Shown one piece after another: positions 2,668 through 16,611 of a DNA stretch of 21,036 bases. The position numbers and the translations under genes were made by a program. The first letter of the stretch is position 1; each line of letters begins with the position of its first letter. This stretch comes from a virus. Location: IMG/VR virus record IMGVR_UViG_3300006805_000197, positions 1-21,036 of that record; one strand, given 5' to 3'. The notes under the pieces are model-generated. The model did no database searches, had not been told where the DNA came from, and worked only from the letters and a program-made list of their open reading frames with translations.

Positions 2668-4506
2668 ATGTCGACACAAACACAAACTCCACTGCCTAAG
2701 ATGACCGAACAGCAAATCAAAGACGAAGCAATACGAATCGTAAATCAAGAAAGGACAAGATGGCAGGATGCAGTTTGTTTTGTAACAGACCGTGTAGCGT
2801 TTCAGATGCGTCCGCTCATTCGTAAGTTACGTAAGAACTATTGGGGTATATTTGATATTCAAACAGACCCACTCACAGGACGTGATAAAACATGGGTTCC
2901 ACTTACTCGTGTTGCAGTTGATGCAAACGTAAAGAACGCCGATGTTGATACAAAGGACATTTCAACACGTGCAAAGAATAGTAAAGGATACACAGAAGCA
3001 AAGGTAGTGCGTGCGGTGCTCACAAACCACCTCCAGACCACTTATTTTGGTGAAGATATCGACCAGTTTATTTTGAATACGGCAATTGACGGTACTGGTG
3101 TGATGAAGTTTATTAAGGCATACGACAAGGAAGGTAAGCCATACTGTAAGCGTGTACAAGTTGACCTTTTGAATGTATATATTGACCCTAACGCAAAGAG
3201 TATTCAGGACGAGTTTCGTTTTACAGAGCGTGCACTAGCTCTACCTGATGAAATTGCAGCAATGGACTCATGGTGGGATACAGAAAACCTCATTGGCTCA
3301 ACAACGGTGTCGAGAATTGATGGAAATTATACCTCTACAAGCAATGGTACTACTGCATCATACCGGGATTTGTGGGAAACGTGGGGTAAAATTCCTAAGT
3401 ATTTGCTTACTGGAAATCCAAAAGATAAGGAATTAGTTGAAGGACACATTGTGGTATCAGGCCTAGAAGCTGCTGACCCTAAGTGTCACTACATTGAAGG
3501 AAACCCAGATGGAATCAAACCATACGAGGAATGGCAGTGGAAAAAGATTGCAAATCGCTGGTACGGTCTCGGTATTGCTGAACGCCTCCTTGCTCTCCAG
3601 GCATGGATGAACACAATCGTGAATATTCGCATTAACCGCTCATACGTTTCTCAGTTGGGCTTGTTCAAAATCCGCAAAGGTTCAGGCATCACACCACAAA
3701 TACTCTCAAGACTTGGTGCAAACGGTGCAATTGTGGTTAATGACCCTAGTGATATCGAGCAGATGGCAGTGCAAGAAGCATCTCAAGCTTCATATGCTGA
3801 TGAAGACAAGATTAATGACTGGGCACAGCGTGACTCAGGTGCATTTGATATTTCAGTTGGTGACCCAACCCCAGCGTCAAAGCCTGCAACTACCTCAGTT
3901 ATAGAAAACAACGCTGCAAAAAGTGGCTTTGGTCTCATTAAGGATGGATTGGGTGCGTTCATTGAGCGCGCGGCTGACCGTCATATCCTCCCAGTGCTAG
4001 GCGAGACGATTAAGGTAAACGATGTTATTGAGCTTGTTAGTGACGACACAATGAATGAAATCATTGAAAACATTGTTGCTGCCGATGCTGATAATGAGCT
4101 CGAAAAGTTGTGGGCACGTGGCATTATTCCATCTCAAGAACAGATGATGCAGTCTATTGAAACGGCTAAGAAGAAGCTATCAGGCCGCCCTAACATTTTC
4201 CTTAAGACAGTGCGTCGAATGCTTGTGAAGCACACATACACACGTGTATTCGTTACGAACGAGACTATTGACCCTTCAGTGATTGTTTCAAACCTCACGT
4301 CAATCCTAAAGTTCCTCCCACAGCAGGTAATCCCAACTATTGTAAAAGAGATTACAGACCTCATGGGCCTCTCTATTGATTTCCCTCGTATGACCGAACA
4401 AGCTCCAGCACCACAGCTGCCACCACAGCAGGCAAATCCACAAAGCCCGTTACTTAGTGCAATGAATAACCCTCAGCCACAATCGACGGAAGCTAACACA
4501 TTATAG
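2668..4506 (+). CDS. Portal protein
   Basis: The portal is the twelve-part ring at the head vertex through which DNA enters and leaves. The 612-residue length and the position directly after terL and before a scaffold and capsid gene are as expected. The N-terminal 100 residues are helical and charged, with W-G-I-F-D; the middle contains F-I-L-N-T-A-I-D-G-T-G-V-M-K (about 133-150), a turn that recurs in P22/SU10-type portals as the A-x-x-G-T-G-x-x-K stretch, followed by V-D-L-L-N-V-Y-I-D-P. A long helical part (about 300-480) would form the stem and crown. The last 40 or so residues are proline- and glutamine-rich and probably disordered. Assignment rests on motif character and gene order. 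Confidence 0.82.
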   Translation: MSTQTQTPLPKMTEQQIKDEAIRIVNQERTRWQDAVCFVTDRVAFQMRPLIRKLRKNYWGIFDIQTDPLTGRDKTWVPLTRVAVDANVKNADVDTKDISTRAKNSKGYTEAKVVRAVLTNHLQTTYFGEDIDQFILNTAIDGTGVMKFIKAYDKEGKPYCKRVQVDLLNVYIDPNAKSIQDEFRFTERALALPDEIAAMDSWWDTENLIGSTTVSRIDGNYTSTSNGTTASYRDLWETWGKIPKYLLTGNPKDKELVEGHIVVSGLEAADPKCHYIEGNPDGIKPYEEWQWKKIANRWYGLGIAERLLALQAWMNTIVNIRINRSYVSQLGLFKIRKGSGITPQILSRLGANGAIVVNDPSDIEQMAVQEASQASYADEDKINDWAQRDSGAFDISVGDPTPASKPATTSVIENNAAKSGFGLIKDGLGAFIERAADRHILPVLGETIKVNDVIELVSDDTMNEIIENIVAADADNELEKLWARGIIPSQEQMMQSIETAKKKLSGRPNIFLKTVRRMLVKHTYTRVFVTNETIDPSVIVSNLTSILKFLPQQVIPTIVKEITDLMGLSIDFPRMTEQAPAPQLPPQQANPQSPLLSAMNNPQPQSTEANTL

Positions 4507-4508
4507 TT

Positions 4509-4817
4509 ATGGATAACAAGTTGCCAGATAAAGAAACAATAGAAGTAACACGAGTTGGTAATGACCTCAAGTCACTCATTGAAAGTGCAGGGTGGGCCAT
4601 TGCTCGTGAACGTCTCATGAAAAAGATTGCAGGCATGCTTAACCTCATGACTATCGAGAGCCCTAACCCTAGTGTTATTATTCAAGAAATTGCAGCACGA
4701 CAGTTAGCAGCAGCTCACGTTATTGAATGGATTAAAGACATCGAAGGCACAGTACACCAAGCAACAAGCAATGACGTCAAGAAAGAGATTAAAGACGAAT
4801 ACATATTCAGAATGTAA
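4509..4817 (+). CDS. Small helical phage protein between portal and scaffold
   Basis: A 102-residue, all-helical-looking protein starting 2 bases after the portal stop. It has S-L-I-E-S-A-G-W near residue 25, a run of charged helix to about 80 including R-Q-L-A-A-A-H-V-I-E-W, and a basic/acidic tail. Phages often have a protein of this size and pattern (E-S-x-G-W then a long helix ending in E-W-I/L) between portal and scaffold genes; it usually has no assigned function and may help prohead assembly. No catalytic motif is visible. Confidence 0.65.
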   Translation: MDNKLPDKETIEVTRVGNDLKSLIESAGWAIARERLMKKIAGMLNLMTIESPNPSVIIQEIAARQLAAAHVIEWIKDIEGTVHQATSNDVKKEIKDEYIFRM

Positions 4818-4825
4818 GGCATTGA

Positions 4826-4853
4826 GCCTCCACTTTTGGACTATTCCAGAGGC
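4826..4853 (+). promoter_or_regulatory. Hairpin in the leader of the scaffold gene
   Basis: In the 90-base gap before the scaffold ATG, GCCTC (4826-4830) pairs with GAGGC (4849-4853), and inside it TGGA (4837-4840) pairs with TCCA (4845-4848), with a 6-base bulge on the left side. A competing pairing is AGCCTCC (4825-4831) with GGGGGCT (4854-4860, one wobble). No T-run follows, so it is not a normal terminator. It may affect translation or mRNA processing before the highly expressed scaffold and capsid genes. Confidence 0.35.
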
Positions 4854-4907
4854 GGGGGCTTAATAGCAAAGGTCGAACCCGAATTATTAGAAAGCAAACT
4901 TAAACTT

Positions 4908-5492
4908 ATGGACAATCAAAACAATCATCAAGACCCTTTCGCTGGTGGTATCGATATCGAATCATCAGACAGGACTGGAAATGTTACTGACAAGGCCAAC
5001 TCTTTGTTGACCCTTGAGGAAATCAACAACCTTACGGGACGAAATTACAAAGACGTTGAAACTGCGCGGAAAGGTCTTACTGAAACCTACAAGTTCGTCG
5101 GTAAGGCTGGTAAATATGAATCTGAGGTAAAGAAGCTACAGGAAATTGTTGAAGAGAAGGATAAACTTCTCGGTTCTGAGCTCACTCAGGTCAAAGAAAC
5201 GCTTTTCTACACACAAAACCCAGAGTACGCCCCATACAAGGACATTATTGCCTCAATGGGAAAGGACGCTGCTAAAGTGGTAGAATCAGAGACTTTTAAG
5301 AAGGTCTTTGAAGCAGTTTCACAGGCTGACAAAGCCAAGAAGTCTAAGTCTGTGCTTGAAACTAATCCACGTATTGGTGAAGCAAAGACTAAGATTGATG
5401 AAGCGAAAGCTCTCGTCGACAAAGGACGACATTCAGATGCTCGTGATATTGCCGTTCAGGCAGTGTTAGAGACCATGAATCTCGGCCAGTAG
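4908..5492 (+). CDS. Scaffolding protein (capsid assembly)
   Basis: Scaffolding proteins guide capsid subunits into a prohead and then leave or are cut. From the ATG at 4908 this one has 194 residues: an acidic, disordered N-terminus (D-P-F-A-G-G-I-D), then L-T-L-E-E-I-N-N-L-T-G-R-N-Y (about 34-47), a charged coiled-coil-like centre (Y-E-S-E-V-K-K-L-Q-E-I-V-E-E-K-D-K-L-L, about 68-88), and a lysine-rich helical C-terminus as in many scaffolds that contact the capsid. It lies just before the capsid gene. The frame can be read from a TTG at 4836, 24 codons earlier, but that part covers the hairpin region and the ATG start gives a better N-terminus. Confidence 0.75.
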   Translation: MDNQNNHQDPFAGGIDIESSDRTGNVTDKANSLLTLEEINNLTGRNYKDVETARKGLTETYKFVGKAGKYESEVKKLQEIVEEKDKLLGSELTQVKETLFYTQNPEYAPYKDIIASMGKDAAKVVESETFKKVFEAVSQADKAKKSKSVLETNPRIGEAKTKIDEAKALVDKGRHSDARDIAVQAVLETMNLGQ

Positions 5493-5522
5493 CTCATTGT
5501 ATAAACCAATACGTAACAGTAT

Positions 5523-6443
5523 ATGGCTTCAGATGCAATCCTTCGTTCCTACGGTGACGTATCCGCTCGCGAAGACGTTGTGATGAATAGTATTGAAATT
5601 CTTACCGCAAAGGAAACTCAGCTTTACAACAAGCTCGGTAAGACTTCAGCTATCAACACAATTCACTCGTACCTTGTAGATACTCTCCGCACAGCTCAAT
5701 CACAGGCTGTCGAAGAAGCTGCTGACTATACTAGCCTTGCGAATAACACTCCTTCACGCCTCACCAACATTGTTGAGGTTGTAGCAGTGCCATTCAAGGT
5801 GTCCCGTACACAACAGGACATTCAGCACTACCAGGGTAGCAATGAACTTTCTCGTCAAACAGAAAAGGCATTGATGGACTGGGCAAACGCTGCTGAATTT
5901 GACCTCGTTCGTTCAACTTTGACTTCAGGTGCCTCAGGCACTGCGCCAAAGATGTCCGGGGTCATCCAAGGCATTAGTAAAAGTACAACATATACTAGCC
6001 ACACGTCTGGTACGGCATGGAACTCGAGTATTCTCGATGGCCTCGTACAGAATAGTTGGGATAACTCTAAGGGTGACTTAGCAACAGATATTTACATGGG
6101 TTCAATCCTACGTAAGAATACTGACTACTTCACTCAGAAGACTAACGTCGTCGTAAACGCCGCCGTTCCTGACATTATTAAGACTGTGTCTACGTATACC
6201 ACTGCGTTCACTACACTTTCTGTACATACTCATCGTTTTGTACAGCAATCAGGTGACGCAACTGGTCGTGTACTCGCCTTGAATACGGAAAAATTGAAGG
6301 TAGCTGTCCTCCGCGCTCCTTACATTGATAGTACACTTGGTCGTTCAGGTGACTATGATGCAAGAGCAATCGTAGGTAAGTTTACCCTCGAAGTACGTAA
6401 TCAGGACGTTAACTTCTATGCGGACGGCTTCCTAAAGGCCTAA
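5523..6443 (+). CDS. Major capsid protein, SU10-like (DUF5309) HK97 fold
   Basis: The shell subunit of the head. The 306-residue protein matches the pattern of the SU10 major capsid family (DUF5309): an N-terminal region with L-T-A-K-E-T-Q-L-Y-N-K-L-G-K-T (about 27-41), then A-I-N-T-I-H-S-Y-L-V-D-T-L (the conserved T-x-x-H/x-W/Y-x-x-D-T-L), followed by E-E-A-A-D-Y and N-I-V-E-V, the helix E-L-S-R-Q-T-E-K-A-L-M-D-W (spine-like) and A-E-F-D-L-V-R-S-T-L. The C-terminal part is beta-rich, as in the A and P domains. It follows the scaffold gene by 30 bases, with no Shine-Dalgarno sequence (agtatATG). The stop is 4 bases before a structured element. Confidence 0.85.
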   Translation: MASDAILRSYGDVSAREDVVMNSIEILTAKETQLYNKLGKTSAINTIHSYLVDTLRTAQSQAVEEAADYTSLANNTPSRLTNIVEVVAVPFKVSRTQQDIQHYQGSNELSRQTEKALMDWANAAEFDLVRSTLTSGASGTAPKMSGVIQGISKSTTYTSHTSGTAWNSSILDGLVQNSWDNSKGDLATDIYMGSILRKNTDYFTQKTNVVVNAAVPDIIKTVSTYTTAFTTLSVHTHRFVQQSGDATGRVLALNTEKLKVAVLRAPYIDSTLGRSGDYDARAIVGKFTLEVRNQDVNFYADGFLKA

Positions 6444-6447
6444 ACGT

Positions 6448-6508
6448 AGTTGTTTGTGCCCGTACTCACTCCAGAATGAGACGTATGGGCACAATTCTGG
6501 AAACAACT
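6448..6508 (+). promoter_or_regulatory. Structured intergenic RNA element between capsid and chaperonin
   Basis: Three perfect or near-perfect complementary pairs lie nested and crossing in 61 bases. P1: AGTTGTTT (6448-6455) with AAACAACT (6501-6508), 8 pairs. P2: GTGCCCGTAC (6456-6465) with GTATGGGCAC (6483-6492), 10 pairs with one G-T wobble. P3: CCAGAAT (6471-6477, in the P2 loop) with ATTCTGG (6494-6500), 7 pairs. P2 and P3 cross, so they form either a pseudoknot or, more likely given the single base between 6492 and 6494, two alternative hairpins inside the shared P1. No T-run follows, so a plain terminator is unlikely. Function unknown. Confidence 0.65.
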
Positions 6509-6522
6509 TAATTAGTTAATTA
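6508..6522 (+). repeat. Short AT-rich direct repeat before the chaperonin start
   Basis: TTAATTA occurs at 6508-6514 and again at 6516-6522 with one base between, ending 6 bases before the chaperonin ATG at 6529. It makes the start region fully A/T, which keeps the start codon unstructured; a protein-binding site is also possible. Confidence 0.4.
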
Positions 6523-6528
6523 AAAGAT

Positions 6529-8028
6529 ATGAAAGAAATAAGAATCGACAACGAAGCTAGGCAAGCGCTCAAGCGTGGTGCTGACTTTGTTGCTAACATT
6601 GTAAAGAAAACTCTAGGGCCTGATGGTCGTAACGTCGCAATTGGTAGTCAGTTTGTACACCCAGTAATCACGAATGACGGCGTTTCTATTGCCCGTGCCA
6701 TTGAGCTCAAAGACCCTATCGAAAACTTAGGCGTGCAGATTATCCGTGAGGCATCACAGAAGACAAACGACAAGGCAGGTGATGGCACTACTACTGCTAT
6801 CACACTTGCACAGGCAATCATGAACGCTGGTTTTAATAAGTTAGAATCAGATGACAAGTTATTTGTTAACAGTAAGAAAGAAAGCAGTCTCGACATTAAG
6901 CGACAAATAATTGATGCAGGTGCACTTGTTATTTCTGAACTCAAAAAGATGGCAAAACCCGTAAAAGCACTCGAAGATTTACAAAAGGTTGCCTTCATTG
7001 CCGTTGAAGATAAAAAACTTGGTGACCTTATTGCAGAAGTTGTAGACAAAGTTGGTGCAGAAGGTGTTATTAAGGTTGAGGAAAGCGACGGTGTGGCTGT
7101 TGAATATGAAATCACCGACGGTATGGAAATCCCAAGTGGCTACATTTCACCTTACATGGTAACGAATGACGAAACACTTGAATCTGTCGTTCAGCGCGCA
7201 AATATCCTCGTCACAAACGGTAACATTGCCTCACCTGCCGAGCTTTTACCTATCATTCAAGAGCTCCAGAAGGAAAGTATTAGCGAGCTTGTAGTGTTTG
7301 CTGAAAATGTCGACAAGAATGTGATTGAGATTTGTAACCTAAACCGTATTAAGGGTGGTGTGAAGGTTCTCATTGTAAAGCCAAGCCTATGGAATAAGGG
7401 TATCTTTGAAGATATCGCCACGGTATCAGGTGCAACACTCATAGACGTGAATACTGGCATGGTGTTGTCAAAAGCAACACGTCAAATGTTGGGTAAAGTA
7501 ACCTCGGTTGTTTCTACCTCAGATAAGACTGTTATCACTGGTGGTAAGGGTGACCGTGAGACAGCGATTAAGCGTCTAAAGGCAGAGCTCAAGACAACTA
7601 AAGCCCCATTTGATAAGGAAAAGATTGAAGAACGCATTGCACGCATTGCAGGTAAAGTTGCCCTAATCAATGTTGGTGCTGTGTCTAACACAGAACGTAA
7701 GTATTTGAAGGATAAGATTGATGATGCTGTAAATGCCACACAGTGCGCACTAGCAGAAGGTGTTGTAGCGGGTGCAGGACTTGCTCTCAAGGCGGTATCA
7801 GAGAAGCTGAAAAAGAACATTATCACTGAAGCAATCCTTGCACCGTATAACCAGATACAGGAAAACAGCGGTGGACTAAAGATAGCTGAATCAGTCATTG
7901 ACCCTGTAAAGGTCACACGCACAGCGGTCGAAACTGCGTGTTCAGTAGCAGCAAACCTCCTCACCATTGAGGCGGCAATAGTAGACATACCAAAGAAAAA
8001 TGAAAGCAATACAGGGGAAAATAATTAG
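6529..8028 (+). CDS. groEL-like: GroEL-like type I chaperonin, divergent and shortened
   Basis: Group I chaperonins enclose and fold proteins with ATP. This 499-residue copy keeps T-L-G-P (28-31), T-N-D-G-V-S with Asp50, G-D-G-T-T-T (84-89, with the Asp85 that corresponds to catalytic Asp87 of E. coli), Asp399 (matching Asp398), V-V-A-G-A-G (412-417) and I-D-P-x-K-V-T-R (457-464). The apical domain has G-Y-I-S-P-Y-M (204-210) and L-L-P-I-I, matching hydrophobic substrate-binding sites. It is about 50 residues shorter than E. coli GroEL: the equatorial stem-loop carrying the N-A-A nucleotide contacts and the G-G-M tail are missing, and the Lys51 position is Asn49. No groES is in the window. 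Placement after the capsid gene suggests capsid folding. Confidence 0.93.
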   Translation: MKEIRIDNEARQALKRGADFVANIVKKTLGPDGRNVAIGSQFVHPVITNDGVSIARAIELKDPIENLGVQIIREASQKTNDKAGDGTTTAITLAQAIMNAGFNKLESDDKLFVNSKKESSLDIKRQIIDAGALVISELKKMAKPVKALEDLQKVAFIAVEDKKLGDLIAEVVDKVGAEGVIKVEESDGVAVEYEITDGMEIPSGYISPYMVTNDETLESVVQRANILVTNGNIASPAELLPIIQELQKESISELVVFAENVDKNVIEICNLNRIKGGVKVLIVKPSLWNKGIFEDIATVSGATLIDVNTGMVLSKATRQMLGKVTSVVSTSDKTVITGGKGDRETAIKRLKAELKTTKAPFDKEKIEERIARIAGKVALINVGAVSNTERKYLKDKIDDAVNATQCALAEGVVAGAGLALKAVSEKLKKNIITEAILAPYNQIQENSGGLKIAESVIDPVKVTRTAVETACSVAANLLTIEAAIVDIPKKNESNTGENN

Positions 8029-8302
8029 GACGGTAAACCGTTACATTAAAAAGAACTACCTCGAATATGAAGCGTTTTGTGAATCAATGCGTGACATTCG
8101 TCTTGTGCAAAAGAATGAAATGGCGTCTACAGAAGACCCGAACGCATACATGAAGCAACTTGCCTACCAAGTGCCAGCGACACTCTATAACCTCATTGAG
8201 AGCAATCTTAGTACGGAGGAATTCCAGTATTTTAAGTCTATACCAGGCACAGTGTGGTTCGCTAAGACGTTCCCAGAATTTAGCCCAGCAAGTAAAATAT
8301 AA
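8000..8302 (+). CDS. Hypothetical protein overlapping the chaperonin gene end
   Basis: A 100-residue protein whose ATG lies 29 bases inside the 3' end of the chaperonin gene, in another frame, so translation is probably coupled. The N-terminus is basic and helical (I-I-R-T-V-N-R-Y-I-K-K-N-Y), the middle is helical and amphipathic, and the C-terminus has an aromatic stretch (W-F-A-K-T-F-P-E-F). It does not look like GroES: there is no early beta strand with the R-P-L-x-D-R-V-x-V pattern and no mobile-loop glycine run, although the length is similar. I do not recognise a family. Being coupled to the chaperonin, a partner role is possible but unproved. Confidence 0.65.
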   Translation: MKAIQGKIIRTVNRYIKKNYLEYEAFCESMRDIRLVQKNEMASTEDPNAYMKQLAYQVPATLYNLIESNLSTEEFQYFKSIPGTVWFAKTFPEFSPASKI

Positions 8303-8305
8303 TCA

Positions 8306-10654
8306 ATGAACAAAATTAAAGTTGCGTTGGCTCTCATTGTGAAGCCAACAGATGATGAAGCTAACCTACTTAAAAGATGTCTCGACAACGTCTCGCAGCA
8401 TGTTGATGGCATATTCGTCACCATTACAGGTGAGAACGCCCTAACAGAAGAAGTATGCAAGGACTATAAAGCAAATATATCGCATTTCACATGGGTAAAT
8501 GACTTTGCTGCTGCCCGTAACTTTAACTTTTCACAGGTTCCAAAGGACTACACACACATTTTGTGGTGTGACGCTGATGACGTATTCCGTGGATTAAAAA
8601 ATCTAAAGCCTATTTTGAAGCAATACAGTGACGTGGATGTTTTCTCAGTAAACTACTTGTACCATTTCAATGAATACAAGCAGGCTGATGTCGTACACAT
8701 GAAGACACAGATTGTTAAGAATGATGGCTGTGTTGAATGGGCTGGTGCACTGCACGAAGATTTTAAGGAAAACAGAGCTATTACACGCTATTTCATACAA
8801 GACATTGAGCGCCTCCATCTCACTGACGAAGACCGTATAGTGCTTGCAAAGACACGTAACGTAGAAGTATCACTTGCAGACCTTGAGAAGAATCCCAATG
8901 ACCCGCGCTCATACTGGAATCTCGGTAATTCATACCTTGGCGCAGGTAAGTACGTAGAAGCGAAAGACACCTTACAGAAGTTTGTTGATAAATCAACCTC
9001 TAGTGAGGAAAAGTACCTTGCATACATTAACCTTTCAAGAATCTGTGAATGGACTGGTGATAGAAACAAGGCTATTGAGTACGGGCGTATCGCACTTGGT
9101 CTAAAACCTGAATACCCAGATGCATATCACAACCTTGGCCAGATTTACTACAATAAAGAGGACTATCGTGAAGCAGAAAAGCTTATTTTGATGGGTCTCA
9201 CTATGAAGCCGCCGTACAAATCAATCATTGTGTTTAACCCACGTGATTATGATTTTACGCCGCTCATGTTGCTCTCAAAGGTGTATTACCAGCTCTCAAG
9301 ACCCGACCAAGCTGTTACTTGTATTGAAGGGTGTTTGAAGATACAGCCAGGAAATACTGAACTCAAGAAGATGCTTGTTTACCTAAAGTCACAGGCCAAG
9401 ATTTTTGAAACTGTAGTAAAGGTATTGGGCAAGGCAAAGAAACTCAAGTCAAAAAAAGCAATCAAGAAGCTTATTGATGAACTGCCAGAAGACCTCCAGT
9501 CACACCCCGGCATTTGTAACCTAAGGAATATCCATTTCCAGAAGACTGGATCAACAGGTAAGGACATTGTGTATTTCTGTGGTTTCACAGAGGAGGAATG
9601 GACACCTGATACAGCAAAAACTAAAGGCATCGGTGGTTCAGAAGAAGCTGTTATTTGGCTTACCTCTATGTGGGCAAAGCAGGGTTACAACGTAACGGTA
9701 TATAACAACTGCGGACACAAGGAAAAGGTATTTGACGGTGTAACATATAAGCCTTTTTGGTCATGGAATTACCGTGACAAGCAAGATGTGGTTATTGTTT
9801 GGCGCAATCCTGGTATTTTGAAACATGAAATCAATGCACCAATTGTTCTTCTAGACATGCATGACGTTATTCCAGAGGGTGAAATGTCACCTGAACGTAT
9901 TGCACGAGCTTCTAAGATTATGGTGAAGTCTAAGTACCAGCGTGATTTGTACAAGAGTATTCCAGATGACAAATTCATCATTGTTCCGAACGGTATTGAT
10001 GCTAAGTTGTTTGATGTGGTATCAGAACGTGATAACAACCTTATCATTAACACCTCTGCTCCTAACCGTGGCATATACATACTCACACACATGTTCCGTG
10101 AGATTAAGAAGCGTCACCCAGAAGCACGCCTACAGTGGGCATATGGCTGGACTACATTCAATAACGGTTTCAGAGATAATGCAGAGGTTATGCAGTGGCG
10201 AGAAAAGCTAGAGAATGACATGAAAGAAATTGGCGTTGAAATTCTCGGCCGTCTATCTCATGGAGATGTTGCAAAACTCTACCTTAAGGCAGGTATATGG
10301 GCGTACCCTTCTGGTTTTGGTGAAATTGATTGTATTTCGCTTTCAAAGGCAATGGCAGCAGGTGCTTTCCCTGTGACTACAGACTTTGCAGCCCTTGGTG
10401 AGAAGCAAGGACATGGTGGACACTTTATTCACTCAGACATTACGTCAAACAATTGGCTCAAACCTAATCAGCACGACTTTTCTATTATCGACGAGAAACA
10501 AGTCAACGAATCAATTGATGCAGTAGTGCACTACTTGAAGAACCCACCAACAGAAGAAGCTCGTAAAGAAATGCGTAAATGGGCACAGGAAACATTCGAC
10601 TGGAATCGTATATTCACCAAGTGGAATGAGGTTATTGAATTATTAAAGAAATAA
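8306..10654 (+). CDS. Two-domain glycosyltransferase: GT2 - TPR - GT4
   Basis: A 782-residue fusion. Residues 1-180: a GT-A (family 2) transferase with the nucleotide-sugar site C-D-A-D-D (88-92) after a hydrophobic strand, and W-A-G-A-L-H-E (145-151), as in bacterial enzymes annotated as SPBc2/WaaE-like transferases. About 195-350: tetratricopeptide repeats (W-N-L-G-N-S-Y, A-Y-I-N-L-S-R, A-Y-H-N-L-G-Q-I-Y-Y), a protein-binding superhelix. About 418-782: a GT-B (family 4) transferase with G-I-G-G-S-E-E-A (441-448), P-N-G-I-D (561-565) and G-F-G-E-I-D-C-I-S-L-S-K-A-M-A-A-G, the E-x7-E-type donor site. It could add two sugars in turn to a protein or glycan held by the repeats. It starts 3 bases after the preceding stop. 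Confidence 0.88.
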   Translation: MNKIKVALALIVKPTDDEANLLKRCLDNVSQHVDGIFVTITGENALTEEVCKDYKANISHFTWVNDFAAARNFNFSQVPKDYTHILWCDADDVFRGLKNLKPILKQYSDVDVFSVNYLYHFNEYKQADVVHMKTQIVKNDGCVEWAGALHEDFKENRAITRYFIQDIERLHLTDEDRIVLAKTRNVEVSLADLEKNPNDPRSYWNLGNSYLGAGKYVEAKDTLQKFVDKSTSSEEKYLAYINLSRICEWTGDRNKAIEYGRIALGLKPEYPDAYHNLGQIYYNKEDYREAEKLILMGLTMKPPYKSIIVFNPRDYDFTPLMLLSKVYYQLSRPDQAVTCIEGCLKIQPGNTELKKMLVYLKSQAKIFETVVKVLGKAKKLKSKKAIKKLIDELPEDLQSHPGICNLRNIHFQKTGSTGKDIVYFCGFTEEEWTPDTAKTKGIGGSEEAVIWLTSMWAKQGYNVTVYNNCGHKEKVFDGVTYKPFWSWNYRDKQDVVIVWRNPGILKHEINAPIVLLDMHDVIPEGEMSPERIARASKIMVKSKYQRDLYKSIPDDKFIIVPNGIDAKLFDVVSERDNNLIINTSAPNRGIYILTHMFREIKKRHPEARLQWAYGWTTFNNGFRDNAEVMQWREKLENDMKEIGVEILGRLSHGDVAKLYLKAGIWAYPSGFGEIDCISLSKAMAAGAFPVTTDFAALGEKQGHGGHFIHSDITSNNWLKPNQHDFSIIDEKQVNESIDAVVHYLKNPPTEEARKEMRKWAQETFDWNRIFTKWNEVIELLKK

Positions 10655-10658
10655 ATTT

Positions 10659-11558
10659 ATGCGTATAGCCTTTGTGTGGTTCGGCATAGACGGGAGATAT
10701 GGCAAGTGGAAAGATGGCTTGTGGAAAGCTATGCAGCTTATCGAACAGCAGCATGAGGTGCGGTATTTTGAGCCTAAAGAGGACATAATTGCGTGGAAGC
10801 CGGACGTTGTTTTGTTTTGGGAAGCAGCCTGCACTATAAATGGGCCAATTCCTGAATCAGACATGTACAAGAAGATACACTCATTACCTTGTAAGAAAAT
10901 CCTCCTTTTTGCAGGTGGGCCATTAGAAGCAATGTGGGTGTACCAGTTTGACATGATACTTGTTGAAAGTGCAATCAATGAAGAAGATTGCGAGCGACAA
11001 GGATTGAAGTACATGCGCGCTTTTGGTGTAAATGACGATATATTTAAGCCTGCTAACTTGCCTAAAATCTTTGACGCAACCATGCAGGCAACCTGTGCAT
11101 CATGGAAGCGCCAAGGGCTACTTGCAGAAGCACTCAAAGAGCGTGTTGTATTCTGTGGCCGTGACCAAAAGAGCGACCCACAACCATTTATTGACGCTAG
11201 GAAGTACTCACTCGTATTACCTGACTTGCCTATGGACGCTGTAGCAACACTCATTAACTCATCACACACAGTAGTAAATACAGCTTCATTTTGGGGTGGT
11301 GGCCAGCGCTGCACACTTGAAGCACTAGCATGTAACGTGCCTGTTATTGCTATGACTGATAGCCCTAAGAACGCCGAATACGTGAGAGAAAGCGGCTGTG
11401 GCGTTGTTTGTGAACCTACAGTTGAAGCCATACGACGAGCGGTTGATGAAGTGAAGCAAACCAATTACGGTACAAAGGGTATCGACTATATCCAGTCAAA
11501 GTGGACTGCAAGACACTATGCAGACTCAATATTACGAGCTATCGAAGCAATTAAATGA
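10659..11558 (+). CDS. GT-B glycosyltransferase-like protein
   Basis: A 299-residue protein beginning M-R-I-A-F-V-W-F-G, a first beta strand with a glycine turn typical of GT-B transferases. The first half has D-V-V-L-F-W-E (about 49-55) and a loop with F-A-G-G-P-L-E. The second half has V-V-F-C-G-R-D (strand), A-T-L-I-N-S-S-H-T-V-V-N, and G-G-G-Q-R-C-T-L-E-A-L-A-C-N-V-P-V-I-A-M, the part that in GT4/GT1 enzymes binds the sugar nucleotide: the E-A-L-A-C-x-x-P-V-I stretch is characteristic. It is shorter than usual (about 350-400), mainly in the N-terminal domain. It ends ATGA, overlapping the next start by 4 bases. Confidence 0.8.
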   Translation: MRIAFVWFGIDGRYGKWKDGLWKAMQLIEQQHEVRYFEPKEDIIAWKPDVVLFWEAACTINGPIPESDMYKKIHSLPCKKILLFAGGPLEAMWVYQFDMILVESAINEEDCERQGLKYMRAFGVNDDIFKPANLPKIFDATMQATCASWKRQGLLAEALKERVVFCGRDQKSDPQPFIDARKYSLVLPDLPMDAVATLINSSHTVVNTASFWGGGQRCTLEALACNVPVIAMTDSPKNAEYVRESGCGVVCEPTVEAIRRAVDEVKQTNYGTKGIDYIQSKWTARHYADSILRAIEAIK

Positions 11559-12010
11559 AACTAATACTTTGTGCAGGAGAAAGACACATTGAAGGCTATA
11601 AGCACCACGATGTAAAAGCGTACCCAAGTACTGATTACGTATGTGACCTATTCGATGTAGCCAAACTTGTGGGAGAAGGAGAATGCGAAGAAATCCATTT
11701 TACCCACGCACTTGAGCATTTTTCTAAGGCAGATGTCCCTAGGGTATTAGCACTAATTTATTCATTGTTAAAAATTGGCGGAAGGTTATACATTGAGGTT
11801 CCTAACTTTGCGTGGCACGCTAACCTTTGCCTTGTCGAAGGTAAAGACCGAGAAGCTATTTACTACGCATTCGGTGGGCAACTTGACCAGTGGGATTTTC
11901 ACAAAACAGGGTTTACAGAAAAAATACTCGAAGAAGATTTGAGACTTGCTGGTTTCAAGCACATAGAGGTGTCTGGATACGACTCACTAAAAGCTAACTG
12001 TATAAAGTAA
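11555..12010 (+). CDS. Class I SAM-dependent methyltransferase-like protein with degenerate motif I
   Basis: A 151-residue protein. F-T-H-A-L-E-H-F (about 49-56), L-K-I-G-G-R-L-Y-I-E-V-P-N (about 71-84) and a C-terminal strand-helix part (L-R-L-A-G-F-K-H-I-E-V) match the second half of class I methyltransferases (motif IV to post-IV, then the G-G-R-L-x-I/V-E-V-P strand). The SAM-binding motif I, normally L-D-x-G-C-G, is degenerate here: L-I-L-C-A-G-E-R near residues 3-10. This pattern is common in small methyltransferases of glycan clusters. It shares a one-base stop/start overlap (TAATG) with the next gene. Whether it is active cannot be told from sequence. Confidence 0.72.
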   Translation: MKLILCAGERHIEGYKHHDVKAYPSTDYVCDLFDVAKLVGEGECEEIHFTHALEHFSKADVPRVLALIYSLLKIGGRLYIEVPNFAWHANLCLVEGKDREAIYYAFGGQLDQWDFHKTGFTEKILEEDLRLAGFKHIEVSGYDSLKANCIK

Positions 12011-12507
12011 TGCCATCATCATTTAGGGAAAATATCCCCGACATTCTAAAGGAAATAGAAAAGGCTAACCCTAAGACAATACTCGATATTGGGTTTGGCC
12101 GTGGTAAGTACGGATTGCTTGTGCGTGAATACTATCCCGATATGCAGATTGATGGGCTAGAAGTGTTTAACGCATACATTGGTGAGGTGCAACGTGCTAT
12201 TTACGGTAAGGTGTATCAAGAAAATATCTTTGAAATGACAGAAATACCAGCTTATGACCTGTACCTTATCATTGATGTGATTGAGCATTGGGATAAAGAA
12301 AAGGCTCGCGAATTACTTAAAAAGCTCACGAAACACGGTGACGTTCTTGTATCTACCCCTCGTGCTGTAGGCGAGCAAGGTGCTGTGTATGGCAATGAAT
12401 GGGAAAGACACGTCTCACAGTGGCAGGGGAGTGACTTTGAGGTATATCCACACAAACATTTACACAACGAACTATCATTTATTTACCTAATCAAAAAACA
12501 TGCCTAA
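12010..12507 (+). CDS. Class I SAM-dependent methyltransferase
   Basis: A 165-residue protein with a clear SAM-binding motif I, T-I-L-D-I-G-F-G-R-G-K-Y-G (about 24-36), followed by I-D-G-L-E-V-F (motif II, with Glu to bind the ribose) and L-Y-L-I-I-D-V-I-E-H (motif IV, about 83-92). The C-terminal part is shortened relative to the usual 200-250 residues and ends in F-I-Y-L-I-K-K. It may methylate a sugar hydroxyl or an O/N atom of the glycan. Pairing with the shorter preceding enzyme suggests two methyl groups, or a catalytic and a helper subunit. It overlaps the next gene by 8 bases. Confidence 0.83.
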   Translation: MPSSFRENIPDILKEIEKANPKTILDIGFGRGKYGLLVREYYPDMQIDGLEVFNAYIGEVQRAIYGKVYQENIFEMTEIPAYDLYLIIDVIEHWDKEKARELLKKLTKHGDVLVSTPRAVGEQGAVYGNEWERHVSQWQGSDFEVYPHKHLHNELSFIYLIKKHA

Positions 12508-13153
12508 AGTATCAGTGATAACACCAACAATTAGAACAAGAGGTTTAGAGATACTAGAAAAATGTCTACGTGAGCAAACATTTCAAGATTTTGAATGGCT
12601 TATTGAACCTAACGTGCATAAATCGCAGCCAGACCTCAATGCTGCACTTAACAGAATGATTAAGCGTTCTCGTGGCGAGATTATTGTTTTTCTACAAGAC
12701 TTTATCAAAATACCTAAAGATGGTATTGAGCAATTCGTAAAAGCTTTAGAGAAGGAAAAAGCATTTTACACAGCACCAGTAAACAAAACAGAGGACGAAA
12801 CATTTACTTTACCCGTTATGGAGTATGACTGGCGACAGTTTAGGAAAGACAAACAGCGATTAGACTGGAAAGATTGGGAGATTGACTGGGCAGCAACAAC
12901 GAAAGAGCTACTCTATGACGTTGGCGGCTTTGACGAAGAGCTTGATAAACACTGGGGCTTTGATAACGTCAACATTGGCCTACGACTTGATATAAAAGGA
13001 CACAAGATATACAACTTAGACGAGAATGAGGCTCTTGGATACCTTCACAACATAGGAATCAAGCACCCTTTCATTGGAAAAAGAAACCCAATTCACCACA
13101 ACATGCGACTTGACGAAATCCGTCGTGGGCTTGTTGTAGACTTCCTCAAGTAA
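12500..13153 (+). CDS. GT2 family glycosyltransferase, atypical acidic motif
   Basis: A 217-residue GT-A protein. It opens with P-K-V-S-V-I-T-P-T-I-R-T-R (2-14), the first strand and turn of GT2 enzymes, then L-R-E-Q-T-F-Q-D-F-E-W-L-I (23-35). The nucleotide-sugar metal site, normally D-x-D, reads F-L-Q-D-F (64-68), keeping one Asp. Further on, V-G-G-F-D-E-E-L-D (141-149) and W-G-F-D-N-V-N-I-G-L-R-L (152-163) match the acceptor part of GT2 (the G-G-F-D-E and E/D-D stretch). It overlaps the methyltransferase gene by 8 bases and ends the cassette, 74 bases before the next gene. Confidence 0.85.
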   Translation: MPKVSVITPTIRTRGLEILEKCLREQTFQDFEWLIEPNVHKSQPDLNAALNRMIKRSRGEIIVFLQDFIKIPKDGIEQFVKALEKEKAFYTAPVNKTEDETFTLPVMEYDWRQFRKDKQRLDWKDWEIDWAATTKELLYDVGGFDEELDKHWGFDNVNIGLRLDIKGHKIYNLDENEALGYLHNIGIKHPFIGKRNPIHHNMRLDEIRRGLVVDFLK

Positions 13154-13227: not shown

Positions 13228-14001
13228 ATGACTCTACAAGACATAAACTCAAAGATAAGTTTCCTCACTGGAGCAGATACGACTTCTGGTGGTTTTGCCA
13301 CCGCTGACCGTGTATCAGCAATCAACAACTATTACCAGCGTGTGCTCACGTTTATCCTCCGTTCACAAGATGAATGGGATTTTGATGACGCGAGTATTAC
13401 AAGTACCTACCCACTAGCTAAGCGTAACCTTGTAGCCAACCAAGAAGACTACAAATTCAGTACGGCACAGTGGGCGCTTACTTCACCAGAAGGTGGTGCT
13501 GACGCTTCTGTTGCCGCAATCTCACCATTTAGACTCAAGCGTGTTGAAGTTTCGTACGATAGTACTAATTGGTATCAAGCATTTCCTTTTGATATCAATC
13601 AAATGTCTTCTGACAACACTACGACGACAATAAATAACTTGTTCCAGACTACGAAGCCATTTTATGACCTACAGTGGAATGCTATTTTCTTGAAGCCTGT
13701 ACCTACTGCAAACGTAACAAAAGGTCTGAAGGTGTGGTTTGACCGCTCAATTACTGAATATACTTCTTCTGACCTTACAACAGGTACAAAAGTCCCTGGT
13801 TTTGACGCTAATTTTCACCAGATTTTGGCTTACGGCCCAGCTTACGAGTTCGCTCTTGCTTACGGTAAGGACAACGGAGAGTCTATCAAAGCAGAGCTCA
13901 CGGAACTATTTGTTGAACTGATGGCGTTCTACGGCAAAAAGGATACTGACCGAAACTGGCAGCTTGCATCTAACTTTGGAGATAATCGCTACGGCTCATA
14001 A
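13228..14001 (+). CDS. Head-tail connector/adaptor-like protein
   Basis: A 257-residue protein at the start of the tail unit. The N-terminal part (about 1-60) is helical with A-I-N-N-Y-Y-Q-R-V-L-T-F-I-L-R-S-Q-D-E-W-D-F, the A-I-N-x-x-Y and W-x-F pattern common in phage connector and tail-tube-adaptor proteins that follow capsid genes, where short helices start the chain and a beta part follows. Next come beta-like stretches (F-R-L-K-R-V-E-V-S-Y) and a helical C-terminal part with Y-G-P-A-Y-E-F-A-L-A-Y. Beyond character and position I cannot assign a fold. A podovirus adaptor or tail-tube protein is most likely. The stop is 2 bases before the next ATG. Confidence 0.55.
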   Translation: MTLQDINSKISFLTGADTTSGGFATADRVSAINNYYQRVLTFILRSQDEWDFDDASITSTYPLAKRNLVANQEDYKFSTAQWALTSPEGGADASVAAISPFRLKRVEVSYDSTNWYQAFPFDINQMSSDNTTTTINNLFQTTKPFYDLQWNAIFLKPVPTANVTKGLKVWFDRSITEYTSSDLTTGTKVPGFDANFHQILAYGPAYEFALAYGKDNGESIKAELTELFVELMAFYGKKDTDRNWQLASNFGDNRYGS

Positions 14002-15588: not shown

Positions 15589-16611
15589 ATGGCTATTGAA
15601 TACGACGAAAAAGACACAGAAGCATTAAAGCAGGATTACATCTTGCCTGATTCGTCTACCACTTTTGACAAGTTTTTTTCAGAGCAAAATGGTTCACTTA
15701 ATCTATACGGTGGACAAATGCAGTCTCCAAACTACGCCGCAGGTGAGTCTGGTTGGGCATTGTTTCCAGACGGTAGTGCAGAATTTCAAAGTGTGCGTGC
15801 TGCGCTTTCTCAGGTGATTAAGAAGTATGTATGCGGCGATGACATTACCCTTGGTCAAGCAGTATTTATTTGTAACGGTACTCAACAGTTCCAAAAATAT
15901 GATAAGGCTTCAGTTAACACGAACACAGAAGAATTCGGTAACACAACAAACAGACAAAAGTTCGCAACCCTAGTCACCATGTCGTCAACGATAACAGTTG
16001 ACCGAGTTAAGGTAACTCTACAAAACTTAGGCACGCCTACTGATAGTGCAGTAATTTCAATACAGGCGAATGTTGGTGGTGTTCCAAGCGGTACAGACTT
16101 GTGCACGGGTAGTATTGCAGCAGCGTCAATCACTGGTTCGGCAGAATATAACATTCAAATGAACCAAAAGGTTACGCTTACTTCTGGTGTCCAGTATTGG
16201 ATAGTGCTTTCTCGTTCTGGTACTTTAAGCGCAACTAATCGCTACGGGGTTGGTGTAAAGCTAAGTGGAGGTTCAGACAAGGTATACAACGGTAGTGCAT
16301 GGGCAGTTCTTGGCACTGATACTGAAATTAAACTGATTCTGACACCAGCATCGGGTGAAATTGCACCAAGTAATTCCGCTACAGCAGGTTATTTTGAAAC
16401 ATTTGTTGGCTTTGCTACTAAAAATAGCTTACGTACCTCACAGTGCCCTGTCATTATTGCAGGTGAGCTTACTGGAAAAACTGGATTGACGGTAGGGCAC
16501 TACTATTTAAGTGATTCTTCTGGAGCTATAGGCACAAGCCCAGGCACTAACACTAGAAAAATAGGCATAGCAACGTCATCGACAACACTACTCATAACAA
16601 ACATTTGGTAA
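15589..16611 (+). CDS. Tail fibre or spike protein with nested beta domains
   Basis: A 340-residue virion surface protein. Residues about 1-50 are an acidic, extended attachment part (D-K-F-F-S-E-Q-N-G-S-L-N-L-Y), followed by S-G-W-A-L-F-P-D-G-S-A-E-F (54-66), a turn found in many phage fibre stems. Residues 80-108 (D-D-I-T-L-G-Q-A-V-F-I) and 262-340 (F-V-G-F-A-T..., G-L-T-V-G-H-Y-Y-L-S, G-T-N-T-R-K-I-G-I-A-T) look like one beta domain common in phage fibres. Between them, about 126-255, a jelly-roll-like domain (V-D-R-V-K-V-T-L-Q-N..., Y-W-I-V-L-S) is inserted, resembling carbohydrate-binding or choice-of-anchor modules. It may bind the host surface glycan. Confidence 0.7.
   Translation: MAIEYDEKDTEALKQDYILPDSSTTFDKFFSEQNGSLNLYGGQMQSPNYAAGESGWALFPDGSAEFQSVRAALSQVIKKYVCGDDITLGQAVFICNGTQQFQKYDKASVNTNTEEFGNTTNRQKFATLVTMSSTITVDRVKVTLQNLGTPTDSAVISIQANVGGVPSGTDLCTGSIAAASITGSAEYNIQMNQKVTLTSGVQYWIVLSRSGTLSATNRYGVGVKLSGGSDKVYNGSAWAVLGTDTEIKLILTPASGEIAPSNSATAGYFETFVGFATKNSLRTSQCPVIIAGELTGKTGLTVGHYYLSDSSGAIGTSPGTNTRKIGIATSSTTLLITNIW

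Follow-up and report, generated by a model that had tools for sequence, protein, structure and literature searches.

We asked what a run of glycosyltransferase and methyltransferase genes does among the virion genes of an uncultivated phage. The window analysed here is the complete IMG/VR record IMGVR_UViG_3300006805_000197, a linear stretch of 21,036 bases that is probably a partial genome, so that other genes of the same phage lie beyond view. Five open reading frames (ORFs), all on the + strand like the capsid, GroEL, g100 and adaptor-like genes of the window described below, encode GT2-TPR-GT4 (8306-10654; 782 residues), named after the order of its domains, the GT-B glycosyltransferase GTB (10659-11558), two predicted SAM methyltransferases, MT1 (11555-12010) and MT2 (12010-12507), and the GT2 glycosyltransferase GT2b (12500-13153). 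From gene to gene, a gap of 4 bases is followed by overlaps of 4, 1 and 8 bases. The identical order recurs across many separate contigs, and the arrangement is therefore not due to chance. We propose that these genes probably specify a pathway of protein glycosylation in the cytoplasm, encoded by the phage and directed at its own virion. Gene identity, domain architecture, the core status of the first gene, the variability of the island that follows it and the purifying selection acting on the core enzyme in relatives were all computed.

The initial annotation had described five adjoining or overlapping genes, lying between the head genes and the tail genes, as a single cassette. Their place and spacing were borne out; the single unit gave way to two components, since the first gene is a core gene and genes 2-5 lie within a variable island. 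Two scans with capsid proteins, the second represented by its best 80 of 93 matches, gave 81 distinct contigs. The first scan, with the major capsid protein (MCP) of the window alone as query, found 5 loci, each of which has the enzyme, truncated in one case where the contig stops; of the 12 MCPs in the profile of the second, 6 came from contigs identified via the glycosyltransferase. Where an MCP-anchored contig extends 1.5 kb or more beyond the MCP gene, the GT2-TPR-GT4 gene lies downstream of it in 63/63 cases. When the threshold was lowered to 1 kb, 67 of 68 contigs had the enzyme, the single miss ending inside a GroEL gene, and the 12 contigs without the enzyme all end 1,220 bases or less after the MCP gene. 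Carrier MCPs have identities to the window MCP down to 24%. A scan with more distant capsids as queries yielded 41 loci having 2.5 kb or more, a count that includes near-copies and three loci (L160, L186 and L194) on contigs already in the first set: the enzyme was accompanied by g100, a small ORF next to it, in 18 loci and stood without g100 in 2, neither gene was present in 21, and g100 never occurred alone. At L194, on the same contig as L144, 5.7 kb separate the MCP from the enzyme downstream of it. In the isolate phages HTVC106P and RHph_N2, whose capsids are related, the stretches viewed contain no gene annotated as a glycosyltransferase. Moreover, the dN/dS ratio (nonsynonymous over synonymous substitution) of the core enzyme was 0.05-0.15 in those 6 of 9 pairs that had a finite dS, two of the six pairs being near-repeats, some dS values exceeding 1 and all pairs being drawn from relatives, as the nearest relatives of the window are too distant. 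In these relatives purifying selection acts on the core enzyme, and GT2-TPR-GT4 is a core head-module gene of an uncultivated tailed-phage clade.

The architecture of the core enzyme suggests a protein substrate. When compared with PDB sequences, residues 11-195 matched the glycosyltransferase domain of GmaR (E 2.3e-16), SunS (E 3.3e-4) and the ThuS entry 7msk (E 6.3e-3), with the DXD motif aligned. With a profile of 74 relatives the E-values improved to 6.4e-32 (GmaR), 2.9e-22 and 1.4e-21 (SunS chains) and 5.7e-18 (7msk); the 7msk alignment covers positions 15-355, GT2 and TPR together, and that of 7msn positions 8-283. The same profile also matches diverse TPR proteins, through their repeats. 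Pfam TPR matches and the helices of the structure model place the TPR domain directly after GT2. The AlphaFold2 model of the whole protein, built with 73 sequences, reached a pLDDT of 94.6 and a pTM of 0.79; in a Foldseek search of the PDB, SunS 7msn came first (E 1.9e-17; rmsd 2.8 over 292 columns for 7msp), then SPINDLY and ThuS near the top (ThuS within the first ten) and then OGT. Residues 418-782 of the model form a GT4 fold, with Z scores of 25-31 to GT4 enzymes over about 300 residues. Residues D89, D91 and D92 (the DXD motif), H150, E151, R184, N185 and E673 are invariant in 74/74 homologues. E673 would be the first position of the E-x7-E motif of GT4 enzymes; at the second position, 71 of the 74 homologues have Lys and 3 have Glu. 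From sequence and model, the core enzyme thus appears to be built like a protein glycosyltransferase to which another transferase has been joined, and we infer its activity from this construction. In two relatives, L010 (11594-14560) and L011 (11596-14583), a stretch that looks methyltransferase-like by eye is fused to the C-terminus of the enzyme, a fusion that would join priming and capping within one protein.

Characterised enzymes resemble this protein in part. The N-terminal domain of GmaR, the Listeria flagellin O-GlcNAc transferase and antirepressor, adds GlcNAc to flagellin, a substrate that the GmaR TPR has been proposed to recognise or hold (PMC9638930; the papers cited here are used for the parts covered). 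GmaR, the top PDB match of residues 1-200, likewise has GT2 followed by TPR, but a linker followed by an antirepressor domain makes up its end (PMC9638930), whereas here GT4 follows and the gene belongs to a phage head module. The glycocin S/O-glycosyltransferases SunS and ThuS, the latter a peptide O/S-glycosyltransferase (PMC12457901), combine GT2 with TPR as well, and SunS is the top PDB fold match; their substrates, however, are bacteriocin peptides (PMC12457901), and the phage enzyme has an extra GT4 half and misses the SunS cut-off. OGT and SPINDLY, protein O-glycosyltransferases that join TPR to a GT-B fold, rank near the top of the fold search with the whole model; the phage enzyme, by contrast, has a glycosyltransferase domain on either side of its TPR, and its matches over residues 418-782 are GT4 enzymes. 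By analogy with GmaR and ThuS, the GT2-TPR half would be expected to prime a protein, the simplest candidate being a product of the same operon. One could imagine that GT2-TPR-GT4 modifies instead a host protein such as flagellin, pilin or a defence protein, as the GmaR substrate is a bacterial surface protein (PMC9638930) and TPR domains are able to bind many partners. A host target would not need the fixed site behind MCP and g100 that is kept clade-wide, however, and we regard such a substrate as improbable.

If a virion protein is modified, the MCP itself is the foremost candidate, although we place its chance of being the acceptor somewhat below even. The window MCP (5523-6443) is of the SU10 type (PF17236, E 7.6e-43). 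Over 62 contigs, the distances of GT2-TPR-GT4 correlated with those of the MCP (0.73), the portal (0.78) and the scaffold (0.76); the labels portal, scaffold and adaptor come from gene order and annotated relatives, without a family match. A special evolutionary partnership with the capsid had seemed indicated by an MCP-enzyme correlation of 0.868 (n=79) against an MCP-portal correlation of 0.54 (n=92); these were unequal sets, and the difference was gone over the common 62 contigs. Within the MCP, a loop at residues 135-164 is a candidate acceptor site. Position 135 is Ser or Thr in 110/112 carriers of the enzyme and 0/16 non-carriers, position 162 in 112/112 and 0/16, and position 164 in 105/112 and 2/16; the non-carriers are 16 of 21 loci, after removal by hand of L206 and L208-L211, the five whose MCP scores were lowest. 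This loop is a lead only, because very few tree transitions are involved.

Several observations weigh against virion decoration or against the capsid as its target. Since the distances of the enzyme track portal and scaffold as closely as the MCP, the capsid is not singled out as acceptor. On a quick MCP tree with 69 rows, carrier status has to change 2 times, one of these changes being due to ctf1B273, whose genome has a partial relative of the core enzyme elsewhere, and gain and loss are indistinguishable. Over the MCP as a whole, 4/16 discriminating columns are Ser/Thr columns, compared with 12/72 conserved ones, which is no enrichment. With regard to the enzyme, residues 1-200 scored 25.5 against the 350-bit cut-off of the SunS family proper (NCBIfam TIGR04195); by sequence, the GT2-TPR half is best described as a relative of SunS outside that family. 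The same part matches PHROG 13126 (E 1.4e-30), which bears the name beta-1,4-glycosyltransferase and is assigned to host takeover, as well as a PaBG gene (E 1e-6) whose annotation is lipooligosaccharide (LOS) glucosyltransferase. The GT4 half reached 37 of the 618 bits of a lipopolysaccharide (LPS) N-acetylglucosaminyltransferase model, far under its cut-off; its relatives serve many different pathways, and the C-terminal part stands alone in some contigs of cyanobacteria and of Granulicella. Finally, phage glycosyltransferase clusters with epimerase, nucleotidyltransferase and methyltransferase genes have been published as host-surface modifiers (PMC7824862), and the absence of genes from long records that are possibly incomplete, on which we draw below, is no proof.

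Some of these points suit a different role, in which the genes alter a host envelope glycan (LPS, capsule or similar), for example to block other phages, and their place in the operon reflects late expression only. PHROG 13126 and the PaBG annotation indicate LOS-type transferases, many GT4 relatives of the C-terminal half, such as PimA and WaaG, use small molecules or lipids, and variable islands would suit surface arms races equally well. The nearest PDB relatives of the GT2-TPR half, however, act on proteins or peptides, and the core gene is present in every long MCP-anchored contig and inherited with the head genes. We also looked for marker families of envelope glycan systems in 22 long IMG/VR records together with the phage ctKR88 (n=23), a possibly incomplete set chosen as enzyme carriers. 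The core enzyme was found in 23/23, which serves as a positive control only (one match has an internal stop codon). The GtrA flippase (PF04138), the carrier-lipid sugar transferase Bac_transf (PF02397) and the polysaccharide flippase Polysacc_synt (PF01943) were each found in 0/23, compared with 7/14, 9/14 and 13/14 in the control, and gtr-type or lipid-carrier systems were rejected on this ground, although cytoplasmic core-LPS transferases require none of the three. Altogether, a role in the host envelope seems unlikely to us. The initial annotation had offered virion decoration and host-surface change as two options; the first is now the better supported, through the first enzyme's kinship with protein glycosyltransferases, its co-inheritance with the head and its presence in every sufficiently long MCP-anchored contig examined, and the second is weakened by the missing envelope families.

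The same records bear on glycosylation of phage DNA bases. DNA-acting phage glycosyltransferases exist (a reference cited in PMC12619734), but the thymidylate synthase (TS)/dCMP-hydroxymethylase family PF00303 was found in 0/23 long records, as against 9/14 in the control, and the GT2-TPR half is related to enzymes with protein substrates. The Tet/JBP dioxygenase PF12851 was likewise found in 0/23, but also in 0/14 of the control. On the PF00303 result, DNA modification was rejected as the main role, and we consider it very improbable.

We then compared the stretch from GT2-TPR-GT4 to the adaptor-like gene, which we define as the island. In the window it ends at the adaptor-like gene at 13228-14001, named by position and present after the island in relatives. 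Over 46 comparable contigs, the island measures 851-9,017 bases with 1-14 genes; GTB is present in 24/46, GT2b in 33/46 and MT1 in 9/46, and GTB and GT2b are both absent from 12/46. Clustering sorts its 198 genes into 92 groups, of which 71 are singletons. That the island is replaceable is argued from this presence/absence pattern and not from the distances, for which the decoupling of GTB and GT2b is mixed. Indeed, over 30 common contigs the core enzyme gave 0.79 with both MCP and portal, GTB gave 0.23 with the MCP and 0.64 with the portal, and GT2b 0.48 and 0.62, whereas over larger, unequal sets the MCP-GTB correlation was 0.60. The suggestion that the whole cassette might be a replaceable insertion in related phages thus applies to genes 2-5, which vary, and fails for gene 1, which is fixed.

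The window's own island genes are recognised with differing strength. GTB matches PF00534 at 33.5 bits (cut-off 26.4) and no PDB sequence at E up to 0.1; GT2b matches PF00535 at 23.7 bits, just over the cut-off of 23.3, and gave three weak matches to PDB sequences, none of them a glycosyltransferase. MT1 scored 25.9 bits with PF13489, under the cut-off of 27, and matches the methyltransferase family phrog_5399 (E 1.2e-6); the best Pfam match of MT2 stayed at 22.5 bits, also under a cut-off of 27, and it matches the methyltransferase family phrog_3382 (E 5.4e-7). In the proposed pathway to a methylated glycan, methylation is a prediction from weak family matches. Donor-sugar genes, for which the initial annotation had advised a search, are present in the relatives' version of the same island. 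At E 0.001, Pfam matches were obtained for 20 out of 30 hand-picked island genes of relatives, a small number of them under the Pfam cut-off. The families include an NDP-sugar dehydratase/epimerase, a DegT aminotransferase, two kinds of cytidylyltransferase and LicD, as well as a sulfotransferase with APS kinase, methyltransferases, extra glycosyltransferases and a nitroreductase. The islands of L002, L019 and L095 carry instead long ORFs of structural look, two of which were scanned and are without a Pfam match. In L002, L004, L024 and L026, GTB and GT2b are found as a pair upstream of the terminase. Short island ORFs in L103 (12304-12759), L118 (20164-20538) and L129 (14923-15228) have starts that resemble HNH or homing endonucleases by eye, and such pieces are a possible route of gene exchange in the island.

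The small ORF between GroEL and the enzyme in the window, g100 (8000-8302; 100 residues), lies between MCP and enzyme in 69/69 enzyme-bearing contigs. It is fast-evolving and helical (model pLDDT 87.9), has a conserved Trp-Phe near its C-terminus and accompanies GT2-TPR-GT4 nearly always; perhaps it is a dedicated partner of the enzyme. Compared with 38 chains, its structure gave Z scores up to 2.5 only, and the absent match is no proof of a new fold. A joint replacement of g100 and enzyme between L002 and L026 was considered and rejected, as one blastn alignment of about 11 kb runs through both. The GroEL of the window (6529-8028; 499 residues; PF00118 and NCBIfam GroEL models) is an optional insertion between the MCP gene and g100, a point used in 8/81 other MCP-anchored contigs; a GroEL gene lies upstream of the terminase in some other contigs, and 6/22 long records have one. 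In ctf1B273 (L214, MW202497), whose capsid is related, a GT2-family gene, groEL and another glycosyltransferase gene are grouped upstream of the portal at 3472-7791, so that chaperonin and glycosyltransferase genes are again in company. In the window, a terminase (Pfam), a portal-position gene, a scaffold-position gene, the MCP, GroEL and g100 precede the five genes, and the adaptor-like gene that follows them is common to relatives. Their GC content (0.40-0.44 in 1-kb windows, against 0.38-0.46 in the whole window) does not distinguish them. Promoter-like and terminator-like sites were no commoner than in shuffles and therefore say nothing about operon structure, and simple hydropathy found no membrane segment in the five genes (maximum 1.40).

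Further observations concern the wider genomes. A predicted tail-region protein of the window (15589-16611) passes the choice-of-anchor R domain model NF041539 (34.9 bits, cut-off 30). In ctKR88 (L158, MW202524), genes annotated as nicotinate phosphoribosyltransferase and PRPP synthetase are adjacent at 31626-33805, by look an NAD-building pair. Contigs L145 and L148, with parts of the operon, are filed in metagenome-assembled genomes (MAGs) labelled Taylorbacteria/Patescibacteria; these labels, either binning errors or a host hint, are too weak for naming a host. A paper on groundwater Patescibacteriota phages does not describe the operon in the parts covered.

Phage virion glycosylation is already known, and the system proposed here would be a variant of that kind. 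In the mycobacteriophages Che8, Corndog and Myrna, phage glycosyltransferases act on capsid and tail tube (PMC12363180, PMC12619734), and according to these citing papers the modification shields particles from antibodies. Here a glycosyltransferase gene goes with the virion genes; the 15 phage records with a match to GT2-TPR-GT4 at E 1e-5 include no mycobacteriophage, and a core enzyme is combined with a variable island. Surface-polysaccharide clusters of cyanophages and jumbo phages such as P-SSM2 also bring glycosyltransferases together with epimerase/dehydratase, nucleotidyltransferase and methyltransferase genes (PMC7824862), but they are sporadic and read as host-surface modification (PMC7824862), whereas the present genes are anchored to a conserved, protein-glycosyltransferase-like gene behind the MCP. 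In the literature on mycobacteriophage virion glycosylation and giant-virus glycans we found no account of this operon, an absence that is unproven since subscription literature lay mostly outside the coverage.

We therefore picture virion glycosylation as follows, inferring the donor, the acceptor, the order of the sugars and the role of the glycan, be it shielding, attachment or stability. The GT2 domain, guided by the TPR, would attach a first sugar to a virion protein, most likely the MCP, and the GT4 domain a second one. GTB and GT2b would then lengthen the chain and MT1 and MT2 methylate it, and in relatives other island genes would take over this third step. Because relatives carry other genes for it, lineages should show differing glycans. 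A more far-reaching version, which we advance tentatively and with less confidence than the choice of the MCP as acceptor, is that of an obligatory head glycan: g100 and GT2-TPR-GT4 would form a two-gene priming module together with a remodelled Ser/Thr loop of the MCP, and the island would be a plug-in glycan writer (methyl, amino-sugar, sulfo and LicD-type caps) that alters the coat between relatives. In each case, GT2-TPR-GT4 may prime and extend a protein glycan within one polypeptide. If virion decoration is true, an environmental phage clade would have fixed protein glycosylation into the building of its particles, with a changing glycan-finishing island alongside, and the use of a sugar coat by water and soil phages for shielding, attachment or stability would become testable.

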